From contig OZ022592.1 of the NCBI GenBank assembly GCA_963669155.1, forward strand, positions 20,595,174 to 20,659,173: 64,000 nucleotides of DNA, in the 5' to 3' direction. Below, in pieces: positions 1,500 to 60,400 of the stretch. The first letter of the stretch is position 1; every line of letters begins with the position of its first letter. The position numbers and the translations under genes were made by a program. This DNA comes from Arbacia lixula (taxonomy: Eukaryota; Echinodermata; Echinoidea; Arbacioida; Arbaciidae). The notes under the pieces are model-generated. The model saw only the letters and a list, made by a program, of their open reading frames with translations, was not told the origin of the DNA and did no database searches.

Positions 1500-2865
1500 T
1501 GTCACGTGAGTGACTTTTTTTTTTCTTCCGCTACTCTGACACTGAAATAATATAAATTCAAACTGTTCGTATACAGTTATGCTCGAGTTTAATATTTCAA
1601 ATCAACAAATCAATAATATATTGAGCATAAAAGATGATAAGAAACAAATCACAAATACATAACTTAGGTTATCTTGGATGACCTGAACTGGTGATCCCCT
1701 CAGCCTGGCTCGGTCGCCATCAACGCCGCGATACCCTCGTCGTCGACCTCGGCACAGTCGCTTGGCGTGTCTCTCGGAAGCATCCCTTGACTTGGCCACT
1801 CAGCTAGACGCTACCCTATCGGCGGTCCTCTCAGCTCCTCGGCCTTCACTAGTCGCTGCTACCATGCAGACTCATGCCTCGACCTGCGATGCCCGAGCTC
1901 AGACGACGGCGAGCAGGCAAATGGAGATTGAGCTCCGTTCCAAAGTTCGGATCATAAATGTCCGAGTTCAGTTTTATCGGCAGCTGGAGCTCGCATCTCA
2001 CCGACGTGGAAACCCCCCAGAAGAACGACTGCTGCCTAAGCGGAGATCTATGCTGGATGTCTGATTGAAGTGTTTCTCAACACGATCACATACTCATACT
2101 CGCTCTTGAGCTCTGGATCTAGTTTCTCGGCTGTCCACAATTCTCTTAGCACATCCAAAGGCCCCCGAACATGTCTCCCATACAACAACTCGAACGGAGA
2201 AAACCCCAGGCTCGAACTCGGTGCTTCTCGCAAAGCAAACAACAACGCCGGAAGATACCTATCCCACTGACGTGGCTCCTCGGAACACAACCGCTTCAGA
2301 GCTGATTTCACCACAGCGTTGTACCGTTCAACGAGGCCATTGCACATAGGATGGTAGCGAGAACTTGTTAACTGTATTATCGACAGCAACCTACACACCT
2401 CACGCATCAAATCAGACACAAACTGTATCCCTAGATCCGACATCACTTCAGTCGGAATCCCAACCCGGCTGTATACCGAAACTAACGCCTCAGCTACGTC
2501 AACAGTTGATATCGATTTCAACGGTATATCGCCTCCACATACCTAGTCGCATAATCTACAATGGTCAGGATATGAGTGTGTTTGCGAGCAGACGGCATGA
2601 ATGGACCAAGAAGATCTATCGCAATGCGTTGAAACGGGACACCAATGAGGGGGACCCTACCAAGGGTAGTCTTGGGCACCCTACCTTTGTCAATAGTCCT
2701 TTGGCATACATCACATGACCTACAGAAATTAGCCACGTCTTCCGACATCCCAGGCCAACAGAACTGAGTCTGAATCTTAGACAACGTATTGTTGATACCC
2801 AAGTGTCCACCTAAGAGTGAGTCATGTGCGACTCGCATTATCTCGTTCCTACGAGGCTTAGGCAC
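1500..2865 (-). repeat. left inverted arm of the retrotransposon
   Basis: The sequence is the reverse complement of 5660-7024, with a handful of substitutions and a 1-bp length difference. From the outside inward it runs TGTCACGTGAGTGAC, a T-run, an AT-rich segment, a GC-richer segment, then antisense integrase. Beyond about 2866 the match falls to scattered microhomology (GGCAC..ACG and CAATTT), which marks the breakpoint. Confidence 0.85.
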
Positions 2866-2889
2866 CACGTGACAATTTGGAGGTCCCAC
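2048..2889 (-). pseudogene. inverted partial integrase copy in the left arm
   Basis: Two overlapping minus-strand frames (2889-2518 and 2521-2048) encode the H2C2 zinc-binding region and the DDE core of a Ty3-type integrase. Both are almost identical to residues 308-579 of the pol frame at 4736-6475. The frame breaks near 2520, where a few bases are inserted after the first catalytic segment, so this copy cannot make one intact integrase. Differences from the right copy include Phe to Leu and Lys to Glu in the segment after the second Asp. It has no start of its own and is the passive product of the inverted duplication. Confidence 0.85.
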
Positions 2890-2894
2890 CGAGA
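2866..2894 (+). promoter_or_regulatory. LTR-end remnant and tRNA-Gln-type primer-binding site
   Basis: CACGTGACA (2866-2874) equals the last nine bases of the element's right end. After ATT comes TGGAGGTCCCACCGAGA (2878-2894), which is complementary to the CCA-bearing 3' end of eukaryotic tRNA-Gln as I recall that sequence. An LTR end, a short spacer and a primer-binding site is the normal 5' arrangement, which shows the original 5' LTR ended exactly here before the inverted arm replaced it. Confidence 0.7.
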
Positions 2895-3139
2895 CTCTGC
2901 TACCTGATTAGAAAAAGTTATTCAGATACTCTTTTAACATGCTTTAGGCTTAAAGACGATGTTTGTATTGGATTCATGATTGAAGTTTCATTGCTCAATC
3001 GTACGCATTACCGTCATATACTGCATGTTATTATTGTCGATGTGATAAATGTTTCGTATGTTTGATCGGAAACGTTACCCCAGTGTGAATCATACGAGTA
3101 TGTTGCCTTACGTGACAGTTTGATTGAAGTTTTTCTCCC

Positions 3140-3861: not shown

Positions 3862-4746
3862 ATGGGCCTTAGTGGTGGTGAATTGAGTAGCTTTGTTTCA
3901 GAGCGATGCCAGGCAATTGAGGCTGATCAGGCGCGCGAACATGAACTAAAATTAGCGCAGTTGCGTGTAAAGGAAGAAACAGCGAATGTTGGTAGGCCCC
4001 AGTTAGCTGGCTTGAAACTGAAAGTAGGTCGATTTGATGACGCACATGATAAGTTTGATGCTTATGTCACAAAGTTAGAAATGTTGATGAAAAGTCAGAA
4101 CATCCCGGTAGACATGTGGGTGTTGTATTTGATTTCCAATCTAACAGGCAAAGCGTTAGATGTTGTGAATCGGATGAGTGCTGATGATCGCCAGAATTAT
4201 GCTACAATGAAGCATGAGTTGATGTCATATTGTCATCTCACTAAAGAGGGGTATAGGCGGGGTTTCAGATCAGCGAAGCCAATAAAGTTTGAGCGCCCAA
4301 AACAGTTTTCTACCCGAATGAAGGGGTATTTCGATCATTGGGTGGAACAGGCTGGGATTGGGGATACTAGAAAGGATCTAGAAGATTTGATTTTGCAAGA
4401 GCAATTTCTGATAGATTGTCCCAAAGAAGTAGTTAGGTTTGTCAAGGAACGAAAATGAAAAGATTTCAGGGAGGTAGTCGATTGTGCTGAAATCTATGTA
4501 GAAGCTCACGGTCCTCATGCATTTTCGGGTGTACAGAAAACGGAAAGAAACCGATCAGATTCAAAGCCGGATAGCAAACCGCCCCAACAAAATCAGGTCA
4601 AGAAGAGTAGTACGTATCAGAAACCGGCTGATGCTCAGTCAAAGGCAGGAAAGGCTATGGGAAATAGGACTTTTCAGGGCAGGGGTTGCTATATGTGTGG
4701 AAACCCTAATCACATGAAAAGAGATTGTCCCATACATGTTGTCTAG
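3862..4746 (+). pseudogene. gag: gag of the Ty3-type element, with an internal TGA
   Basis: The frame opens at ATG 3862 and runs to TGA 4456-4458 (198 aa). It then stays open in the same frame to TAG 4744-4746. The first part is a helical, charged Gag-like protein with a region (around residues 50-190) resembling capsid/SCAN-type folds, containing YLISNLTGKALDVVNRM. The downstream part, still in frame, ends with one CCHC zinc knuckle at 4687-4728 (CYMCGNPNHMKRDC), the nucleic-acid-binding tail expected of Gag. The TGA therefore splits one gag gene: either a disabling mutation or, less likely, a readthrough site. Pol follows in the +1 frame. Gag would package the element RNA in cytoplasmic particles. 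Confidence 0.75.
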
Positions 4747-6475
4747 GCCGGTATCTGCTCAAGGTTTGATGGGGGCTGGGGAAGGTACGGCGCCAAAAGC
4801 AGACATGAATGTGGCGAATGAAGTGTCTCGGGGTGATTCTAAGCCGGAAGTTGTTGGTTCGACGGCAGGTTGTTTCCCCATTGAAAGGGTGGTCGATGAC
4901 TTTGATGTGAAAATGAAATTGGTTGACAGAGTTGGAATGGCATACAATGATGTCGCCGCGATGGTGAATCGTATGCCGGTTGTGTCTGGAAGGCTGATGC
5001 CAGATAATACACCCGTGTCTGTTTTGCGTGATACAGGTTGTAGTACGTGTGTGGTGAAAGAGAGATTGGTTAGAAATGACCAATTAAGAGGTCAACACCA
5101 GGGAGTGAGGTTAATTGATGGTACGGTTAGGCGTTTTCCCTTGGCTAAGATAGCTGTTGACTCGCCATATTTTGAAGGGGAAGTTGAAGCCGTGTGCATG
5201 CCTGATTGTTTGAGTGAGGTAGTTATCGGGAATGTAGAAGGGGCTCGTGAACCGAGTGACCCCAATCTACATTGGGTCCCAAAGAGTGTCGTGTTTGACC
5301 CGGATGTAGACGTCATAACCCCGGATATGGGTTTAGAAAGTTCAAATGATGGTGTAGAACAGGACGTCGAGATCGCATTCCCGGGTGAACTGCATGATAC
5401 TGGGATGGCTGCGCAAACTCGTGCACAAAAGATGAAGGATTCGAGGCCTAGTAAAGGTTTGACTATTGCAGATCCTGTTGATAATGTGCGGTCGAGTGAA
5501 TTTCTAAGGGAACAGAAAGAGGATGAGTCATTGCGCCCTCTATGGCAGAAAATAGGACAGGTTGATAATTCCAAGTACAAGTTTGTGTGTGAACAGGGGT
5601 TTCTACTTAGGCAGAAAAGGGATGAAAGTAATCAGGGCATGGGTCCTAAATTGCTCGTAGTGCCTAAGCCTCGTAGGAACGAGATAATGCGAGTCGCACA
5701 TGACTCACTCTTAGGTGGACACTTGGGTATCAACAATACGTTGTCTAAGATTCAGACTCAGTTCTGTTGGCCTGGGATGTCGGAAGACGTGGCTAATTTC
5801 TGTAGGTCATGTGATGTATGCCAAAGGACTATTGACAAAGGTAGGGTGCCCAAGACTACCCTTGGTAGGGTCCCCCTCATTGGTGTCCCGTTTCAACGCA
5901 TTGCGATAGATCTTCTTGGTCCATTCATGCCGTCTGCTCGCAAACACACTCATATCCTGACCATTGTAGATTATGCGACTAGGTATGTGGAGGCGATACC
6001 GTTGAAATCGATATCAACTGTTGACGTAGCTGAGGCGTTAGTTTCGGTATACAGCCGGGTTGGGATTCCGACTGAAGTGATGTCGGATCTAGGGATACAG
6101 TTTGTGTCTGATTTCATGCGTAAGGTGTGTAGGTTGTTGTCGATAATACAGTTAACAAGTTCTCGCTACCATCCTATGTGCAATGGCCTCGTTGAACGGT
6201 ACAACGCTGTGGTGAAATCAGCTCTGAAGCGGTTGTGTTCCGAGGAGCCACGTCAGTGGGATAGGTATCTTCCGGCGTTGTTGTTTGCTTTGCGAGAAGC
6301 ACCGAGTTCGAGCCTGGGGTTTTCTCCGTTCGAGTTGTTGTATGGGAGACATGTTCGGGGGCCTTTGGATGTGCTAAGAGAACTGTGGACAGCCGAGAAA
6401 CTAGATCCAGAGCTCAAGAGCGAGTATGAGTATGTGATCGAGTTGAGAAACACTTCAATCAGACATCCAGCATAG
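4718..6475 (+). CDS. pol: protease-integrase polyprotein of the Ty3-type element (3'-truncated, no RT)
   Basis: The frame is +1 relative to gag and opens after the stop at 4717; the first ATG is 4736 (579 aa from there). The aspartic protease active site is LRDTGCS, with Asp99 at 5030. A TRAQ-containing linker follows and then, without any RT or RNase H, the integrase: H2C2 zinc-binding region near residues 322-362 (HDSLLGGH and CRSCDVC) and a DDE core with AIDLLGP, SDLGIQF and NGLVERYN carrying the three acidic residues. The integrase ends at TAG 6473-6475, soon after its GFSPFELLYG region, so it lacks a full C-terminal tail. Only about 430 bp separate the protease and zinc regions. That is too short for a lost RT-RNase H block unless the deletion was exactly in frame, so the protease-integrase order is probably native. 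Confidence 0.85.
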   Translation, partial: KEIVPYMLSRPVSAQGLMGAGEGTAPKADMNVANEVSRGDSKPEVVGSTAGCFPIERVVDDFDVKMKLVDRVGMAYNDVAAMVNRMPVVSGRLMPDNTPVSVLRDTGCSTCVVKERLVRNDQLRGQHQGVRLIDGTVRRFPLAKIAVDSPYFEGEVEAVCMPDCLSEVVIGNVEGAREPSDPNLHWVPKSVVFDPDVDVITPDMGLESSNDGVEQDVEIAFPGELHDTGMAAQTRAQKMKDSRPSKGLTIADPVDNVRSSEFLREQKEDESLRPLWQKIGQVDNSKYKFVCEQGFLLRQKRDESNQGMGPKLLVVPKPRRNEIMRVAHDSLLGGHLGINNTLSKIQTQFCWPGMSEDVANFCRSCDVCQRTIDKGRVPKTTLGRVPLIGVPFQRIAIDLLGPFMPSARKHTHILTIVDYATRYVEAIPLKSISTVDVAEALVSVYSRVGIPTEVMSDLGIQFVSDFMRKVCRLLSIIQLTSSRYHPMCNGLVERYNAVVKSALKRLCSEEPRQWDRYLPALLFALREAPSSSLGFSPFELLYGRHVRGPLDVLRELWTAEKLDPELKSEYEYVIELRNTSIRHPA

Positions 6476-8111: not shown

Positions 8112-9993
8112 TTAGATTCTAGCATCGTACATCTCCTGGTAATACGGCATGCACGCCTCCACACACTCCCTGACGTCATCAGTGACGTCTTCCATGGAGG
8201 GAAGCTTAGATGGGGGAAGAAAGTGAGATGTATGGAACGCCGTCTTGCAGTAGATACGGATGAACTCAAAGTCGTTGGGTGGCGCGAATGCACTAACCCA
8301 GTTGTTGGTCGTCGCTGGACTAGCGTCCCACCGTAGTAGGTCCTCGCTGTACGGCATGCCCAGAGCTCGACAGAACTTCGGGAGCACGCCGGCTGGGTCG
8401 GCCAGGAGATCGTCGCTGTCAAGAATGACCGGGCTCGAGTCAAGATGGTCTTTGACGTGCTTCCACAGGTCATAGAGCTCCTTGAAGAAGCGGCCGGGCG
8501 GGGCGTACATCGCGGGTACATCTCTGACCATATGGAAGGCCTCTTGCGACTTGGATCGCTCTGCCTCGGGGAAGAGTTCTTGGTTGAGTTCGAACATGAC
8601 CTTCCGCCAGGACACGAACACCTTGATGGGGTGACGAAGCAGAAAGGCGTGTCTGTACCCGGAGGACCTGGCTGGTAGGAAGTCGAGTTGCCCGGTGATT
8701 GCGTAGGCCATCTCCTTCAGAAAGACCCCTTTCAAGGCGGGTTCAGGGTTTTCCAGCAATTCCTGGATTCGGTGATAACTGAAAGATCGAGGTAAAGGTT
8801 ATGTCAATAAAGCGGTTGATGGAGAGGGGGAGCATAAGAAAGAGAGAGGGAACGGTAGGGGAAAAGTTGTGTTTATGTAGGAGGAAGGCTACATCTAAAA
8901 TTTTCCGAGAGTTTTTCAATCTGTTTTGTTTGAAATAAATTCAAAATGAAATTGTAAAATGATATTAACGTTCTTATGAAGCCCATGCATATTATGAATA
9001 TTTTGAGAGACAGACATAGAGGAAGAGAGTAAGGGACGGAGAAGAGAGGGGTGAGCTGTGAATATGACGAGTTTTGTAAGGCATGGTATCAGTTGAAATT
9101 TACAGAATGGGAAGTAAGATTCAAAAACAAAAGTTTTTCCTAGAAAATGGCCAGGCATCAAACAATGACATATGAGACATACAACGAATCCGCTGACAAA
9201 TAGTTGTTAAATCATGCAGCTAGGGCGTGAGTGCGAGGATTACCACATTTGGTTTTATTCTCGATCTCCGTCCTCAATGCCTGATACCAAATCGAAAGTT
9301 TGCTCATTCCTACATAGGCATGCGGGCGTGTTCATGTGAAAATACCAATTCCGTCTACCAACGCACGTAATCGACACGCTAACACGTTGTGGCATGGTAG
9401 CATGCGAAATGGGACTCGAGCTAATGTCCATGTATATATCGGCTACGTGACGCACAGCTTGGACAAACGAACTTCACAAAAGATGTAAGCAAGGTATTAA
9501 TCTGACATGCCCGCATTCATGTATCTGAAATGAATTTGAATTTATCACGTTGCGTGCCACAAGTAAAACACACAAATCTCACAGGGTTAACATGGTTTCA
9601 ATCTGCGGTAGTGCATTTTGTTAGATCTCAACAAGAAAAATATTATATTTCCTTTAAAAGGTCGTTCTGTATCACTCACCTAAACATCTTGAAATCGACC
9701 CTCCCATCGCCGCAGTTTTCACCACCGCTGATGAGCTCGGCTGCTGTCAAGCTATCAGCCTCCCCGATCGTTGATTCACCCCCTTCCCCCAGCCCCAAGC
9801 TCCTGAGTCGCTTCTCGTACTCGTAGCAGAAGTAGTAAGGCTCGAAGAAGACCCGCGTCTTGGGAAGAAAGCTGAGGCACTTGGTAAGAATTGACGAGGT
9901 TGAGCGGGGCGCACACCACATCAGTACCCGGAACTGCCGGCGCTCAGATCCCTCGCTTCCTGGTGGATTCGACGAACAAGCCTCCGCCGCCAT
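8112..9993 (-). CDS. sulfotransferase-like protein, two exons (9993-9680 and 8778-8112)
   Basis: Exon 1 starts at ATG 9993 in a good context (GCGG after the ATG) and ends at 9680 before GTGAGT. Exon 2 starts at 8778 after CTTTCAG and ends with TAA at 8112. The joined frame is 981 nt, 326 aa, with a 901-bp GT-AG intron. Residues 22-34 hold a P-loop-like 5'-phosphosulfate-binding motif, CAPRSTSSIL, followed by FFEPYYFCYEYEKRL. Exon 2 holds LLRHPIKVFVSWRK, the Arg/Ser 3'-phosphate-binding motif of PAPS-dependent sulfotransferases. The protein would move sulfate from PAPS to an unknown acceptor. It belongs to the cytosolic-looking sulfotransferase-like family abundant in echinoderms and amphioxus, often misnamed after branched-chain aminotransferases. 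No signal peptide or membrane anchor is visible. A GTG further upstream (10038) is in frame but less likely as a start. Confidence 0.85.
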
Positions 9994-23770: not shown

Positions 23771-24490
23771 TCAACGAGTAAATTTCCTTTTTTTGTCAGG
23801 GAAGTCATGGCTGACACGAGTGGATCCTGGTACCCCAGCAGTAGGGTCATCTAGGCTGACATGAGTAGATCCTGGTATCCCAGCAGTAGGGTCATCTTGG
23901 CTGACATGAGTGGATCCTGGTAGCCCAGCAGTAAGGTCATCTAGGCTGACATGAGTGGATCCTGGTAGCTCAGCAGTAGGGTCATCTTGGCTGACATGAG
24001 GGGATCCTGGTACCCCAGCAGTAGGGTCATCTAGGCTGACATGAGTGGATCCTGGTACCTCAGCAGTAGGGTCATCTTGGCTGACATGAGTAGATCCTGG
24101 TACCCCAGCAGTAGGGTCATGTAGGCTGACATGAGTGGATCCTGTTACCCCAGCAGTAGGGTCATCTTGGCTGACATGAGTGGATCCTGGTACCCGAGCA
24201 GTAGAGTCATCTTGGCTGACATGAGTGGATCCTGTTACCCCAGCAGTAGGGTCATCTTGGCTGACATGAGTTGATCCTGGTACCCCAGCAGTAGGGTCAT
24301 CTTGGCTGAGATGAGTGGATCCTGGTACCCCAGCAGTACGGTCATCTTGGCTGACATGAGTGGATCCTGGTACCCCAGCAGTAGGGTCATGTTGGCTGAC
24401 ATGAGTGGATCCTGGTATCCCAGCAGTAGGGTCATCTTGGCTGATGTCTTCATCATCACTTTCCTCGTCCTTCCTGTCAGCGTACCAAAC
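23771..24490 (-). CDS. NLR terminal exon: coding 45-bp minisatellite, about fourteen 15-aa repeats
   Basis: The exon starts at 24490 after TTTGATAG (phase 0) and ends with TGA at 23771-23773: 240 codons including the stop. It opens VWYADRKDEESDDEDIS, an acidic linker, followed by about fourteen repeats of QDDPTAGVPGSTHVS and the tail DFPDKKRKFTR. All units are exactly 45 bp apart from a 3-bp in-frame loss in the last one. I read every unit: none has a stop in this frame, although variants (CTAGAT for CAAGAT) create stops in a neighbouring frame. There is no start codon in this frame, as expected for an internal or terminal exon. KKRK near the end resembles a nuclear-localisation cluster, which is inference. 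The phase matches the preceding exon (26457-26355). Confidence 0.8.
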   Translation of the reverse strand, partial: VWYADRKDEESDDEDISQDDPTAGIPGSTHVSQHDPTAGVPGSTHVSQDDRTAGVPGSTHLSQDDPTAGVPGSTHVSQDDPTAGVTGSTHVSQDDSTARVPGSTHVSQDDPTAGVTGSTHVSLHDPTAGVPGSTHVSQDDPTAEVPGSTHVSLDDPTAGVPGSPHVSQDDPTAELPGSTHVSLDDLTAGLPGSTHVSQDDPTAGIPGSTHVSLDDPTAGVPGSTRVSHDFPDKKRKFTR

Positions 24491-48400: not shown

Positions 48401-51400
48401 CTCCATTGACTTTTGTTTCTAATAGCTTATCGTAATCAAGCGGCACTTTACACTTCGTGCTCTTCTCTTCTTCTACCAGTTCGAGATTTGTGAAGATATC
48501 GTCAAACTGAAGGAGGGTATCAAAATCTAACGGGTCCGCCTGGATTTGGCAGAACCGCGTAGCGTAGTAGTGCTTCAGGTCGTCAGAGCACCGCTGAACA
48601 TCCTCATCCGACAGAGAAGAGAAAGCAGTTGTGTCAAGTCCTGCACAAAGGGATAAAAGATACAGCATGTAATCAAATCCCTCCTAGCCTGGAACTATAA
48701 TGGATAGACTATGATCGGAAAGACTTCTTTTGATCTATCAGACAGCATCCTCATACAAATGTAAGACATTCAGGTGTTTTTAACAATACCCTACATTCAG
48801 TGATATTTCTAATTATGCAATGTCATCCTCTGAATAAAGAAAAAGGAAATCTGGTTTGAAATATATGTCACCCGTTCAGCCTTTGCCGGGCCTTAGATGA
48901 TCTTCATGCACAAACTGTGAATTAGTGGTGAGCGAAGGGAAATGTTGACAGAATTGTAGGAATAATTTGGTCAGTACCTTTTCCGGACACCTTTACAGAA
49001 TCGTATCATTATAAGACGTATTATTACTGTGCATGCATTTTAGTGCATGAAGTGGCACTGAAATCTGCGCATACAAAAAATATATATTTTTTAAATGCAT
49101 CCCAAAGTTGTCTTGCCTGTTTAACGGTGGACCTCCTCAGATTAAATAGCAAAAACGCGCAAAATATTCACATGATGCCCTTAATGCAATATAAAAAGCA
49201 TATATCATATTGTAATATTATTTGGGCAACTCACAAATGCAATACGGGTCCTATATCAATGCGTCAAAAAAAAACAAGCAACGAGATTATGTAGAAACTC
49301 ACAGTATCAGGATCACACGGACCCTCCATTGTTTTTTAGTTAAATCATTCGCCTCAATTCGGACCTTTTCCCCCTCATATTCAATACAACATTTCAGGCC
49401 AATTCACAAGTTCATCCATATCCCACTAGACATTCGACAAATCTACATATTTAGGTCCAAGGACTGCACTTGCGCATACCTCAATTAAGCAGTCTGGCTC
49501 TTATATTGGAATTCCCTTCCCACCGAAATACAAATGTTGAACACGATATACTCTTTTAAGAAAGCGCCAAAGCTTCACCTCATTCAACAATACATTGTAT
49601 GGTTGTATTCCAGTATGCCCAGATAATACTTTTTTATTGTTATTGCGTTAATCTCCCATGACTTTGTACAATATTGTTGCCCGCACATTTTTTTTTTATT
49701 TTAATACAAAAACTAGAACAAAACGCACTTGGAGTGGAACGCATCTTTCTCTCTCTCTCTTTCTCACTCTCTCCGCCTCTCTCTCTTTATATTTGTGTCT
49801 TTCTATATTTTACTTATACCCGGTATAACATGCAATTACGATTTTTCACACCTTCAAGCCTCGACTAATGATGAAAACCCTCTGTTATTCATTTCGTACA
49901 ATATGATGTACTTTGGGTTTTCATGCCATTAAGTTTCGGTGTCTTTTGAATAGCCTGCTGTTTTTTCGTTTTTTTTTTTTTTTATTCATTCTTGGCTATC
50001 CTTGTTTTGGAATATCCGCACTTTGTATGAATTGATATGTGTATCTACTATTGTAATATATTTATTGAAAAACAAGCAGAAAATACATTAATCGAATAAA
50101 ATCAAGATTTTGTGTATTATATGGCATTACAGTAAGCACTGCAAGTTCGCATGGACTAATCGCAGCAGGATGAGATAACGTGCATGCATCATCATAATAT
50201 CTACCTGCAGCAAGGCGATTTGCAAGATTCTCCAAGGGAATTGAACGTAGTTTATCAACCAGGATCTTCCTCGCCTCTTCTTCCTTCACTGTTTTCAGCC
50301 AGTCATTCAGCATGTGGTAGGTTGCCCATTCGATGCTTTGCTTGTCGTGTTCATATCGGCGCAGCGCGGCTTCCGTGATCCCTAAGGCCAGACCTACTTT
50401 CCTGTAGTCCTGTGGATCCATTAGCTCGGCCAACTTGCACACTTCTAGGGACTTTAGGTTTTGAGGCCTGGGAAGTAGAATGACAAATTTAAACATAGTA
50501 AAGGCAATAAGACTCGATCACTCATTGAAGTGTCAATTAAGCCATGAAGGTGTGCACTATATTCTAACGGTGGAATAATGACAACCTTCTCATGCTTTCC
50601 CCCGTAAATTATGTTACGCCATAGCATTGCACTTTGAAAGAACAATACACAGATGAAATACTGATCAGAATAGACGCACATTTTAAGACAATAGTGTGGC
50701 TGACTTCAACAAATTGCAAGACCCCAATGAATCATTTGAAAAGTTCATGTCACTCCTACGCTTTGCTTATGATGAAATAATTCCTGCCCAATTGCGCAGA
50801 AAACCTAATTGCAGGAAAGTACCAAGATCACCGTGGATAAACAAAACCCTCCTAAGATCAATCAACCGAAAAAACAACTTATACTACAGATATAAGCACA
50901 ACTCTAATCCCACAACGCGAGCCAAATATACTACGTACAAAAATATACTCACATCTTTGCTACGAAATGCCAAAAGAGGCTATTTTGCAAACAAATTTCA
51001 CAACAACAAACACAACACAAATGGCACGTGGAAGACTCTGAACAGCATTCTTAACAAAAACAAACTGCAAGATAACTGTAACCAAATAATATTAGAGAAC
51101 GAAACAATAAGAGAACCGAAATGAATAGCACAACATTTTAACGCTTACTTTGTAAATGTTGGTCCAAACTTGGCAAATAAATATCAGAAATATCAAACAT
51201 TGTTACACAGTTCAAAAACGACAAAAGTCCAGGCTTCGATAATATCAACAACACATTACTGAAAAGGATTCTACCTGACCTACTTATCCCACTAAATCAT
51301 ATCTTCTATTTATCCTTGACAACTGGTGTATTTCCCGATCAAATGAAAATTGCGAAAGTTGTACCAATATTCAAAAAAAGGAAACACAGCTCTTCTCACC

Positions 51401-54400
51401 AACTATCGTCCAATCTCGCTTCTAAAAACTTTTTCTAAGATCCTAGAAAAAGTTCTTTATAAGCGACTTGTCTATTTTGTAAAACAAAACAACATTCTTA
51501 ATGACACAAAATTTGGCTTCCGCGAAAACCACAACACATCACATGCCCTACTGACCCTAATACACAAAATAAGTAAATCACTGGATGATAGGCTACAAAC
51601 TATCGGTGTGTTCCTGGACTTCTCCAAGGCCTTTGACACAGTTGACCACAGCATATTGTTAAATAAATTGTCGCATTACGGTGTCCGAGGTAAGGCCTTG
51701 GAGTGGTTCAGGAGTTACCTAGACAACAGGAAACAATATGTAGTAACAAAACACAGTGAATCTGAAATGAGGAATGTTTCATGCGGCGTCCCCCAGGGCT
51801 CAATTCTAGGTCACTTACTATTCATTTTGTACATAAACGACATATGCAAATCTTCCAAATTGTTATCATTTATATTATTCGCACATACTCACATTCAAAC
51901 CCCGATACACTTGTCAATGTCATGAATAAAGAACTAAACAACGTCAACAGCTGGATACATGCATATACATTTTCTCTAAACCTTGACAAAACGAATTACA
52001 TGCTTTTCAGCAAAACTCTCTCACTCCTCCCAAACCCCATTCTATTCAACACTACTACTTTACAAGGAGTAAAATCTACTAAATTCCTGGGGGTATACGT
52101 CGACGATGCCCTCACTTGGAAACACCATGTTAATGAGTTATGCAAGAAAGTCTCACGTAACATCGGAATTATCAAATGGCATGGGGCAATTGTTTCACGT
52201 CACAAACAAATAAGCTAGTATTACTACAAAAAAGAGCAATGAGAATAATAAATGGTACAGGCTACCGAGAACACACAAATAATTTATTTTACCAAAACCG
52301 AGTCCTAAAATATCACGATCTCTACAATTTAAGTCTTAGTTCCTTCATGTACCAGCTAGCACAAGAAACATTACCTCAAAACATCCTTGATTTATTCTGT
52401 AGAAACCGAGACGTACACAACTATCCTACAAGACAATCACGCCTTTATCATCTCTTACTGACCCGGACATTATGTCGCCAAAGAATATTTTTATATCAAG
52501 GACCTCAACTGTGGAACTCACTGAGCAGTGAACTGCAGTCATCCGTAATCATCTATACATTCAAGCGCAGGCTAAAGCGCAGCCTAATCGACGCATATCG
52601 CACACTTCCCGATGCTTAGTTTATTTTCTCCTACGTATGCCCTTCACCTTGAACCCCCCCCCCCCCCCCTTTACGGCACTTTGATTTAATAAATGTATAC
52701 ATCTTTATGTAATTTCATATATTGTAACGGGGAGCCTATAACCCTACAAGCTTCGCTTTTTCTATAGGCTCCCTCCACACTGTTATATGTTATCAATTTT
52801 CTGTTATTGAAGTGTACAAGCAGTAATTTGATAATGTTTTCGATATGCATTATATCTACCTCGTTAATGTCCCCCTTTATTTATCTGTATATGCATTTGA
52901 ACGTATCATTTCATGTACTTGTGCGTTGTATGTTTATGTTTATATGTGGAAATAAGTTAAATTAAATTAAATTCAATTCAAATTACATAATCACAGGATA
53001 TATGCGGTTGCCTGGGTTTTAGTTTAGACGCGTTCACGATTTGTGCTTGACTCCATGTTTGATAACATGTATGTGTGCGTATGGAACGCTACTGAGGTTA
53101 AAACACTACATTCCTCCTTACAATATGCATTCATTCCATAAGCTCTACAGTTTCAAATAACTCGTTATTGCATGTACCTAAAGATAAGTTTTTCAGCTGT
53201 GTATTACGTTTATCAATCTAAACAACGCAGTTTTTACAATACTTAAAACACATGCAACTATAGTTAAAGTGCATGACAGAAAATCTTATTTTAACACACC
53301 AACTTCTGACTACTGATTATTTGCATTATATTCCACATACTAAGAATGTTGCTATATGATTGGTCAAGATTTGATCACGTGATGAGGCGTAGTTTTTCCT
53401 AACAGATCACCTGAGAATAAAAGTTCGTTACACTCCAGGTGATAGTAGTTTTTGGTTTCGCTGATCTCTTCACTCCTCACAGTCCTAACGCGTGATCAAT
53501 ATGTTGAGTACGCGCGAAATAAAATTGCGTTACACTCGGACTATCAGTAGCTCCTACTAGCGCGTCCTATGCGCGCGTGTTCCCCATGGCAGCGGCTCTG
53601 GGCTAGGTAGAGAAGAAACATTACTTTTGTACGTCAAATTTTCATTTTTTGTATAGATAGTTGGTTTCAGATGTGGAATATAAAGCAAATAATCAACTTT
53701 TGGTTTCAGGCAATGAGACGAACGATCACTTCCTCGGCGATCTGAATGTATACGCTATCTTTCCTCAGCTGCGCTTCGGAAAGATAGCTACATCCATATC
53801 GCCTCGGAAGTGATAGTTCGTCCAATCACCTTCACCAACGTTGATTATTTGCTTATTAACATTCATGAAATGTCTTTCAGCATTGTGTCTCTGAATGTGA
53901 AAAGCTAGTTGCTCACATAAAATGAGATTAGATCTGTTCTTCTCCCATATGACCGTGGCCTCGTTGATATTGACTTTTATGTGTTGGTCTATGGAAAAAA
54001 AATAGATTGCTTTAGCACTAAACAATATTTGCTGTTGGCAGTTTAGAACTTACAAAATAAAAAAAACATAGAAATTTCTAATGTCTTCATGTAGGAATTA
54101 TTTTTTTTTTCCTTTCCAAAAACATGGGGGGGGGGGGGTGGCTCTCTCCAATCAACAATGTAACATATAACACATTTACAAGCAAGGAATAACCATCTCA
54201 TTATGTTATTTTGTTCTGTGTTTTTTTGTTTTCAAGGGTCCATTATTGACCTTAAGACATTACCTTATTTTTCTTGTATAAATTGGAAGGAAGAAATAAG
54301 CTGGCCACATTAACAAATCAATCTGTTAGCTAAGCCTTACTGTTAACATTATTCCCCCTTTTCACCTTTTTTGTTCCTAGCAGTAACATACAGATTAAGT

Positions 54401-57400: not shown

Positions 57401-60400
57401 ATTTTTTCACATGGAATTCCAGTTTATTCACCCACGTTAAATTGTTCAAAATGATGCTTCACTGTTAGTGCTCAAGTTTTACTCAACAATTCTCAAATTG
57501 AGGTCTCTATCCAGTCCTTGTCATCGGGCTTAAAGCATAATTATCAGTTTGCTTTTCTAAGAGACATCACGTTTTTTCGCGCCAAGGCACCCACGAAGAG
57601 CTTTCAGGATCAAGTCCTTCACGTCGTGCATGAGAGTGACCGGTTTGACGAGCTCCAGCTTGCCACATCGATGGAAGAAGTGAGGCCGTTATCAGTGCAG
57701 ACGACTTCAGGAACACCAAACAAAGAAAATGTGCAATCCAAGTGAAGGATAACAGCTTTGCTGGATGTAGATAAAATAAACAACGATATGAAATCCTCTG
57801 TAATCATCAATGATTACTAGTAAATGATCTCAGGTGGGCGAATGTGAAAAATCGATGCTCACTTCCTTCCATGGATGTGTAGGCAGAGTAGACATCGTGA
57901 TTGGCTTGCATGTACTGGTGGAGATGCCTGTCGCTTGGCATGGGATGCATGGACTAATCCGGTCTTCCACACGCTTATCTATTCCAGGAAAACATACTTT
58001 TTCGCGAATAAATTGCAACGATGCCGTGGTGTCCCTGGTGTGCGATAATGATGATGGGCTCTCAAATGGTAGATGGAATCACAATTCTGTGCTCGCGCAG
58101 AATAACATCCCCATCTTTTGCTATGCTCAGTTCATGTCTCACATTTGCTAGACATTGTAGCTGAGGCACATCTTGTGAGATGGAGTGCTAGCGATTCTCT
58201 TCGATGGCTTTCTTGCAAGACTGCAGAGTAGGATCTGACTTTGTAGCTGTGATGATTGCTTCCATCGTGACAGATTTCGGTACTGCGTTTTCCAGATTGA
58301 AGTTGATATGCTCTTTTGCATTCGGCTCTCCTGCCGACATGCTTCGCGACGGATGTCATGACAGGTATCAGCTGGATTAGATGCACCTGGCTGGTACTGG
58401 AGAATGAAATCATACTGCTGGAGATGTAGCACCCATCGTTTGATCCTTTGAGTCAAGTTGGCTATGTTGAACAGTGGCACAAGTGGCTTGTGGTCGGCGA
58501 TCACTGAGAACTGGCTTCCACAGAGGTACAGGTGGAAATTTGTGATTCCCCAGGATGCAGCAAGTGCTTCGCGTTCCGTCTGCGAGTATCGTTATTCCAC
58601 AGAAGTGAGTGACCGGCTTGCGAGTGCCACAATGACTGACTTGTCGCGTTCACCACCGTGTTCTAGTAGCATGGCATATAACCCAACAGGACTAGCATCG
58701 ACAACTGTGGAGTAGAGACTTGGGTTGTGACAGTGCTGTGCGATAGCGTGTTTGATGACATTGAAGGATTTGGCGTGTTGATGTTCCCATGACCATTAAA
58801 CGCTCTGCTTTGTCGGGTCTACTCTCTCCGTGCCCTCCCCCCCCCGCCCCCCCCCCCCCATTCTGTGTTTCTCTAGCCCGCTCATTAACGAAGGACACCC
58901 CACGTTAAAGAGAGGTTACCACCAACGTTACAGGGTGGTGACGGACGGACAATATATACGCTATTGTGAATTTTATTTGGAGCGCAATTTTAGAGTTTGA
59001 AATCGGATCACAATGTCACAAGTTTTAAGTTCGAATCGAAATCAGAATAAATTTCTGCATTACCTGTGCGCTGGAAATCAACTAGAAATTTGAATTCTGC
59101 TCAACTTTGGAACTGGAAATAAGTTGAACATTTGTGCAATACTTTTAAGCGTGATATTGAGGATAAGTCTTGCAATAGTCCTGCTTTGGAAGTCAAGAGA
59201 TACAAAAAAATTATTTCACGATATCAAGAATTATATATTTCAATATCAAGAATTCTGTTTCGTGATATCAAGAAATGAATTCTTGATACCAAGAGATGGT
59301 TTTGTGTGGTTAAGCAATGGTAATTGTCGATATCAAGAAATCAAACTTTTGATATCAAGAAATCGAATTCTTATATCAAGAAGTAGGAAAAAAAAAAAAC
59401 GTCTTGCCATTCGCCATTCGAAAGTGGAAAAGGTTTGCTAAAACTTCCTGAACTTAGTGGCTAAAATCAAATCTATATCGAGGGGTGGGGAGGAGGTATC
59501 GTAAACGTGGCCAACCTCGTCGCCAGTATAATGTTGCTGACTTCAACAAACTACATAATTGCAAGATATCTGTGGTTGCCTGGGTTTTAATTTAGACACG
59601 TTCACGATCTGTGCTTGACTTCATGCTTTATAACACGCGTGTATGCGTATGGAACGCCACTGGGGTACAACACTACACAGATATATCACCTCAATATGCT
59701 TAATCGTTTAAAAGTTAATCGTTTCAAGATACATTGATGGTGCCAAGTTTTATTGAAATTAAGCCGCATCATAAACTGAGTCAATATGATACTCGTATCT
59801 GAGATGAAACTGCTACAATTGTAAAGCAACTTCAATAGACCAGGCAGCTCAAGGACAGATAATGGAAATGTATTAGATATTACACTCACTTTGCGTTTGG
59901 ACCGGGGTTCGTCTCCACGTCCCCAGCTTGTAGGAGAATTAATTTCCCGATGCAGGCGATGTCATTGTCCACGTTAGAGGTGTGATCGTTGCACCGCTCA
60001 GTCGTACACTTGGCTGGCGAGGCAGCATTAGGTGGATGTTCCTTTACACCAACATGGATACATAAATGGAAGTATTTATGGTATCATTGTTGGCTACGGT
60101 CGCGGGGCAGGTCAAGAGTTTTAAAGGATAAGGCGATCATACAAAATAATACTTCCGAAAAGAGTTGTATTACTGCAACATGTCTAGTGTGATATTATTA
60201 CGCAATATATTCCTTTCATCTAAAAACTGATCGAGCACTATTATGCTCTCCATTGTGTTTATATATTGGTGTGTCAGTCTGCTTTGCATGAAAAAGTTTC
60301 ATTATGGTAATTTCTTTATTCATTGATATTATTCTTGTAACCGGGTCAACTACATAAGCTGCTATGAGAACTGCTACCATTGTTTTGTAATTGGCTAGTT

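Follow-up and report, generated by a model that had tools for sequence, protein, structure and literature searches.

A 2A exon set in frame between a conserved leader and the Death-NACHT exons of an NLR gene family in the sea urchin Arbacia lixula

The receptor gene in the window

The window, which is the whole 64,000-nucleotide stretch of Arbacia lixula DNA that was analysed, harbors on its minus strand a series of exons that read as one NLR gene. The leader exon (61169-60483, minus strand, 687 nt) begins with an ATG at 61169, runs for 229 codons and ends in phase 0 at a GTAAGA donor. It is followed by a 2A exon (60041-59890, minus strand, 152 nt), with the translation EHPPNAASPAKCTTERCNDHTSNVDNDIACIGKLILLQAGDVETNPGPNA plus 2 nt, which ends at a GTGAGT donor and reads ...CIGKLILLQAGDVETNPGP|NA at its end on the minus strand. 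This exon contains the full 2A core LILLQAGDVETNPGP (DVETNPGP), and the DxExNPGP motif was found a single time across the six frames of the window. The upstream context was L-rich with Ala-Gly before the Asp of the core, reading LILLQAG- in the window and LLLLQAG- in the other 22 copies compared. Further along the minus strand, the Death-domain exon (50467-50205; Pfam Death PF00531, E=1.9e-8) presents the acceptor cttcccag and must be supplied with 2 nt by the exon before it; the NACHT exon (48640-47049; Pfam NACHT PF05729, E=5.7e-19) found its best solved-structure relatives in NLRC4 (E=1.1e-10) and then in NAIP.

Joined at the GT-AG splice sites predicted from the sequence, with matching phases, the leader, 2A, Death and NACHT exons make up 898 open codons, and the 2A thus has coding sequence in frame on either side, with conserved predicted splice phases. 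An earlier, sequence-only reading of this DNA had placed a 2A exon in phase upstream of the Death exon, had described DVETNPGP as a 2A core after a hydrophobic run and had counted 276 residues before the final Pro. Its coordinates, sequence and phase proved right, the 2A exon ending 2 nt into a codon; the run is indeed L-rich, with G before the core, and the count holds (229 + 47).

LRR-type exons were recognised at seven places on the minus strand (37201-34389) by tblastn with a paralogue LRR-type exon (E 4e-24 to 2e-13); over the three of them that were scanned with Pfam LRR models, the best match was LRR_1 with E=0.14, below the cut-off. The LRR-type exon at 37201-37037 (minus strand) has an in-frame stop that may truncate the receptor encoded in the window.

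The predicted intron between the 2A and Death exons spans 9.4 kb in the window, where it includes a LINE reverse-transcriptase fragment (51347-51922, plus strand; RVT_1, E=3.8e-26) and a Gypsy-type RNase H fragment (58151-58591, minus strand; RT_RNaseH, E=1.3e-14). Both exons were read in 20 other paralogues; in 19 of these the intron measured 432-537 nt, in the same phase, and in L039 it measured 4.2 kb. An AG acceptor was found at the Death exon in all 21 copies, the window included; for five further copies (L020, L029, L032, L012 and L014) the Death exon lay outside the sequence extracted.

Other features were observed elsewhere in the window. A 45-bp tandem repeat of about 14 copies (23808-24444) has an open minus-strand frame that encodes a 15-residue repeat (SQDDPTAGVPGSTHV-like), an ORF at 8115-8798 (minus strand) encodes a sulfotransferase domain (Sulfotransfer_5, E=1.6e-8), and a Gypsy-type integrase frame occupies 4718-6472 (plus strand), with a partial inverted copy at 2048-2907 (minus strand).

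A multicopy family arranged in a chromosomal array

The assembly searched comprised 607 Mb in 590 contigs, and counts of large families given here are lower bounds. A pattern made of the codons of DVE-x-NPGP, with x restricted to Ser, Thr, Arg, Cys and Trp codons, was found at 44 places genome-wide, versus none for the reversed pattern. When the 2A exon was used as a DNA query, 33 matches were obtained, all among these 44 places, and 31 of them were near full length with 84-100% identity, the window's own included. A NACHT match on the same strand followed within 30 kb in 40 of the 44 motif places, versus 0 of 44 in the strand-flipped control, and lay downstream of every one of the 33 DNA matches. 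The recurrence of a near-full-length exon 31 times, together with these two controls, shows that the motif is not a chance occurrence, and this explanation was ruled out.

The NACHT profile PF05729 gave 78 genomic matches, all above the cut-off, among which some may be other STAND NTPases, since in a control the profile also matched 11 of 14 named prokaryote genomes, above the cut-off in three. The proportion of these matches that go with a 2A (40/78) is the count for one motif pattern only.

A protein search with the leader returned 40 rows corresponding to 39 leader exons, one of them split by a deletion, and none had an internal stop. All 39 had a 2A on the same strand within 22 kb, and 38 had a NACHT match downstream on the same strand. 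Most conspicuous was contig C17, in which, between 17.99 and 20.99 Mb, 29 leader, 29 2A and 29 NACHT exons alternate strictly, each unit keeping to one strand: 23 units run one way and are followed by six reversed ones, the window unit among the latter.

The four motif places without NACHT corresponded to LINE copies on C2 and at C12:9.85 Mb, to C12:7.93 Mb and to C22:9161, the last being a leader-2A pair for which no NACHT was detected. At the C12:7.93 Mb place (L006, C12:7926720), the 2A core lies in a short frame; no NACHT match occurs within 30 kb, and no other feature was identified there.

Among 26 extracted array-type copies, which include the window and the C8 and C50 copies, the 2A exon measured 152 nt in 24 and 137 nt in two, so that its length was 2 mod 3 in all 26, the exon ends being taken at the GTGAGT/GTAAGT donor that the script sought. 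The peptide DVETNPGP was identical in the 23 array-type copies compared. These paralogues are kin and possibly homogenised by gene conversion, and counts over them are therefore not independent.

In-frame stops were present in four of 19 extracted NACHT exons (two of the 19 being partial), which, together with the stop in the window's LRR-type exon, means that some copies are not functional genes. Three near-identical leader-2A-Death-NACHT units about 6 kb apart (L025, L026; C17:18.54-18.55 Mb) all carry stops in the NACHT frame; here a gene that was already defective has apparently been duplicated, locally and recently.

Sister genes and short-type genes

A divergent sister set was found on C12, C19 and C22. 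These genes carry DVERNPGP-type 2A exons, and their leaders, in the four compared, were 25-29% identical to that of the window over the whole length, the first 43 residues, which hold the helix pattern EWRARIGCF..R.RK..W.ERQ, being 49-60% identical. Downstream of one sister on C19 and one on C22, a Death exon (59-64%) and a NACHT exon (71%) could be read. Two further NACHT genes, L043 (C22:4209534) and L005 (C10:463158), present an ATG shortly 5′ of a strongly hydrophobic N-terminal 2A; of the two, a Death exon was read for L043 only. The 2A exons of four sister-type genes and of these two short-type genes likewise end 2 nt into a codon, the short-type phase being taken at the nearest GT[AG]AG.

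Selection on the 2A exon, the receptor exons and the leader

The ratio dN/dS (w) was calculated by the Nei-Gojobori method, with the near-identical copies L025b, L026 and L012 left out. From the leader set were also removed L024 (deletion), L016 (no ATG) and L004 (missed by the end pattern), as well as L021, L037 and L038, whose leaders were incomplete in the sequence extracted, and from the NACHT set, four copies having stops and one partial copy. In the 2A exon, the last 18 codons gave w=0.108 and the preceding 32 codons w=1.08 (23 copies). The Death exon presented w=0.27 (19 copies) and the NACHT exon w=0.41 (14 copies). For the leader, w was 0.62 over the whole, 0.48 over the first 60 codons and 0.68 in the tail (17 copies), within which one 30-residue block exceeded 1. 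Counting alleles, residues 34-48 of the 2A exon held eight synonymous and one nonsynonymous, versus 10 and 30 in the rest of the exon (Fisher p=7e-4, 24 copies), although the copies are related and this test, like the dN/dS values, is therefore a guide rather than an exact test. The octapeptide itself held four synonymous and no nonsynonymous alleles among 24 full-length array-type copies.

None of the 22 extracted leader frames had a stop; in a neutral simulation of the leader at 5% divergence, about 1.8 stops were expected and 16% of runs were stop-free. The equal phase among leaders is not an independent result, since their extraction demanded an in-frame donor.

Judged by these ratios, both the 2A core and the N-terminal helix of the leader (w=0.48) are under purifying selection. 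On the genomic evidence, the 2A exon belongs as a fixed component, maintained by selection, to an NLR gene family of many copies, and a 3-Mb tandem array of 29 NLR genes whose 2A core is strongly constrained provides good evidence for the dependence of a host gene family on 2A.

The leader protein

AlphaFold2, run with 21 sequences, placed a single helix at residues 3-60 of the leader (ten-residue pLDDT means of 63-83) and no structure after residue 60, with a mean pLDDT of 49 over all residues; residues 61-229 are thus predicted to form a disordered Ser/Asn-rich tail. The first 60 residues bear a net charge of +7 and no signal-like hydrophobic run, the best 12-residue Kyte-Doolittle mean there being 0.73, a measure of hydrophobicity only. 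The corresponding best values were 1.93 at the window 2A and 3.67 and 2.93 in the short-type genes.

The leader had no Pfam match, a sister leader giving a 9.9-bit match at chance level only, and no relatives among solved structures at E<=1. A search of the protein database with residues 1-380 of the joined gene returned nothing at E<=10 among 6542 candidates, the Death part included, and since the Death part was also unmatched, this database is probably one without such animals.

A splice acceptor located 9 nt 5′ of the leader ATG is conserved in the aligned copies and in the C12 sister, which suggests that at least one further exon probably exists upstream; such an exon may be coding and may even provide a signal peptide. 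When the sequence 5′ of the leader (2.8-4.1 kb) was compared between the window and two paralogues, good alignment was confined to the 40 nt that surround the acceptor, one other match being poor (155 nt, 66%), and the upstream exon was not found within 2.8 kb. The C50 copy is without the leader ATG.

Proposed mechanism and alternative explanations

In the mechanism proposed here, the leader, 2A, Death, NACHT and LRR exons would be spliced in this order into one frame, and the nascent 2A would stall the ribosome so that the Gly-Pro bond is skipped at NPG|P. The stall at this site, the release and the restart with Pro are given as established for 2A in two papers (PMC4981915; PMC12846837), and the motif together with the selection acting on it suggests the same here. 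A leader of 276 residues would be freed, composed of a basic N-terminal helix followed by a long disordered tail with the 2A peptide at its C-terminus; synthesis would resume at Pro to produce a Death-NACHT-LRR receptor, cytosolic as other NLRs are, leaving a minor unskipped fraction as leader-receptor fusion. We put at roughly 0.8 the probability that one mRNA gives rise to the free leader, the Pro-started receptor and some fusion, and we infer that each intact gene very likely yields two separate proteins. The sequence-only reading had proposed these products, and its interpretation is supported.

The leader helix could act as a co-made partner or regulator or, within the fusion, as a module for localisation or oligomerisation, and either role appears more likely than that of a secretion switch: the leader is without a signal-like hydrophobic stretch and so is probably not the switch found in S. 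purpuratus. It may be tentatively suggested, as a possibility somewhat short of probable, that these genes are a viral-style polyprotein in a host immune family, in which 2A would co-make, in fixed ratio, a functional leader (for instance a trans-acting partner or brake) and a cytosolic NLR, a small fraction of which stays tethered to the leader. If this is true, an immune sensor that has expanded to some 39 copies would have a translational set-point in the efficiency of skipping.

The leader could otherwise be a disposable N-terminal extension, cut free and then degraded, whose sole purpose would be to tune the amount of receptor or to expose an N-terminal Pro. Such a reading would fit a tail (61-229) that is predicted to be disordered and is near-neutral (w=0.68), as well as a 2A core that is better conserved than any other part of the exon, but the purified helix, and the conservation of its first 43 residues in sister genes that are otherwise so divergent, argue against a purely disposable leader and make this explanation unlikely. 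Less likely still is a dual targeting like that of S. purpuratus, with the leader sending the unskipped form to a membrane or organelle and the skipped form remaining cytosolic. In that species an NLR 2A sequence combines the activities of a signal sequence and a 2A (PMC4981915), two NACHT genes of the present genome (C22:4209534 and C10:463158) have a short hydrophobic N-terminal 2A, and the leader helix is basic; however, the hydrophobicity of the leader, by Kyte-Doolittle only, falls well below that of the short types and no signal-like run occurs in it.

It was also considered that leader and 2A are alternative first exons used in few transcripts, most of the receptor coming from other starts. 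Of 21 array-type copies, 19 have an in-frame ATG in the intron directly 5′ of the Death exon (MFKFVILLPR- in the window), which could initiate a second, leaderless form of the receptor. Nevertheless, this ATG sits inside the polypyrimidine tract and is missing in L037 and L004, as well as in all three genes of the sister or short type that were read, so that it is unlikely to be the main receptor start, and leader and 2A are kept in all 29 array units; alternative first exons are accordingly improbable as an account of the whole. The refutation that the sequence-only reading had itself named is that the 2A exon derives from the 5′ region of a LINE and would then be in phase with an NLR only fortuitously. 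LINEs with a 2A do exist in this genome (C2:26920317 and C12:9853334) and elsewhere (L001, L002). Yet the window frame closes just past the 2A exon with no same-strand endonuclease/RT frame after it, the sequence context of the LINE 2A copies differs, and all 31 near-full-length 2A exons lie within leader-2A-NACHT units. With stops following in the intron, the Death exon following in 21 copies and a same-strand NACHT downstream of 33/33 relatives of the 2A exon and 38/39 leaders, this origin was contradicted, and a LINE remnant is ruled out for practical purposes. The elements L001 and L002 were met in a search of bacterial and archaeal genome contigs, as 2A-bearing LINEs on bacterial MAG contigs, and probably represent eukaryotic contamination.

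Comparison with known 2A systems and NLR proteins

The preferred reading, a host NLR gene that makes two proteins by 2A skipping, shares traits with several known systems. Odon et al., in 2013, reportedly described 2A in APE-type non-LTR retrotransposons, going with the LINE endonuclease/RT. The core peptide and the L-rich context are the same in those elements, but endonuclease/RT follows there, as in L001, L002 and L003, whereas NLR exons follow here. NLRC4 and NAIP, whose N-termini are formed by CARD and BIR domains, are the best solved-structure matches of the NACHT exon; unlike them, the present genes have a Death domain and a 2A-separated leader.

The arrangement of two proteins separated by 2A is best known from viruses. 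As in viral polyprotein 2A/StopGo (PMC12846837), the 2A is internal here and lies between two substantial products, but in this case it belongs to a host multigene family with introns, set in a chromosomal tandem array. The same paper describes LLLLSG-like and (A/S/C)G-ending motifs for the 2A class to which the window's core, with its L-rich context and Ala-Gly, belongs, and calls cellular genes that use 2A skipping rare.

The closest precedent comes from S. purpuratus, in which about 35% of NLR proteins (85/241) have a 2A (Roulston et al. 2016, PMC4981915). The sequence-only reading had stated that N-terminal 2A sequences of sea urchin NLRs are reported to double as signals, and that paper says so: in the characterised SpNLR2A, the 2A is formed by residues 1-26 and also serves as a signal sequence. 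Both species have a 2A on the N-terminal side of Death-NACHT receptors, which here have putative LRRs, with a hydrophobic run ending in GDVETNPGP, and the frequency of 85/241 NLR proteins there compares with 40/78 NACHT matches here, counted with one pattern. The short hydrophobic 2A of L043 and L005 resembles this signal type. In the window, however, the 2A ends at residue 276 and not within the first ~26-40 residues, and it is preceded by a separate 229-codon hydrophilic leader exon without a signal-like N-terminus (Kyte-Doolittle).

The architecture had been proposed as possibly undescribed. This stands for the conserved leader family, unreported in the literature searched, and does not stand for the 2A itself, since PMC4981915 mentions, for some S. 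purpuratus NLRs, a 2A 'within the N-terminal region'; the claim of novelty is therefore limited to the leader family. Among the literature matches listed, that paper alone bears on 2A in NLRs by title or abstract start, and PMC12846837 cites it, as it does Odon 2013; none of these matches has a conserved 229-codon leader exon before an NLR 2A. A description may exist in Odon 2013 or in Rao 2025 (Cell Rep 44, 115822). Hence, 2A on NLRs was already known, and the leader exon kept in all 29 array units is apparently new within the literature searched. Since long hydrophilic and short hydrophobic types occur in one genome, secretion versus separation of two products becomes testable, and these genes form a ready-made set of immune receptors with 2A in which to study how translational recoding tunes immunity.
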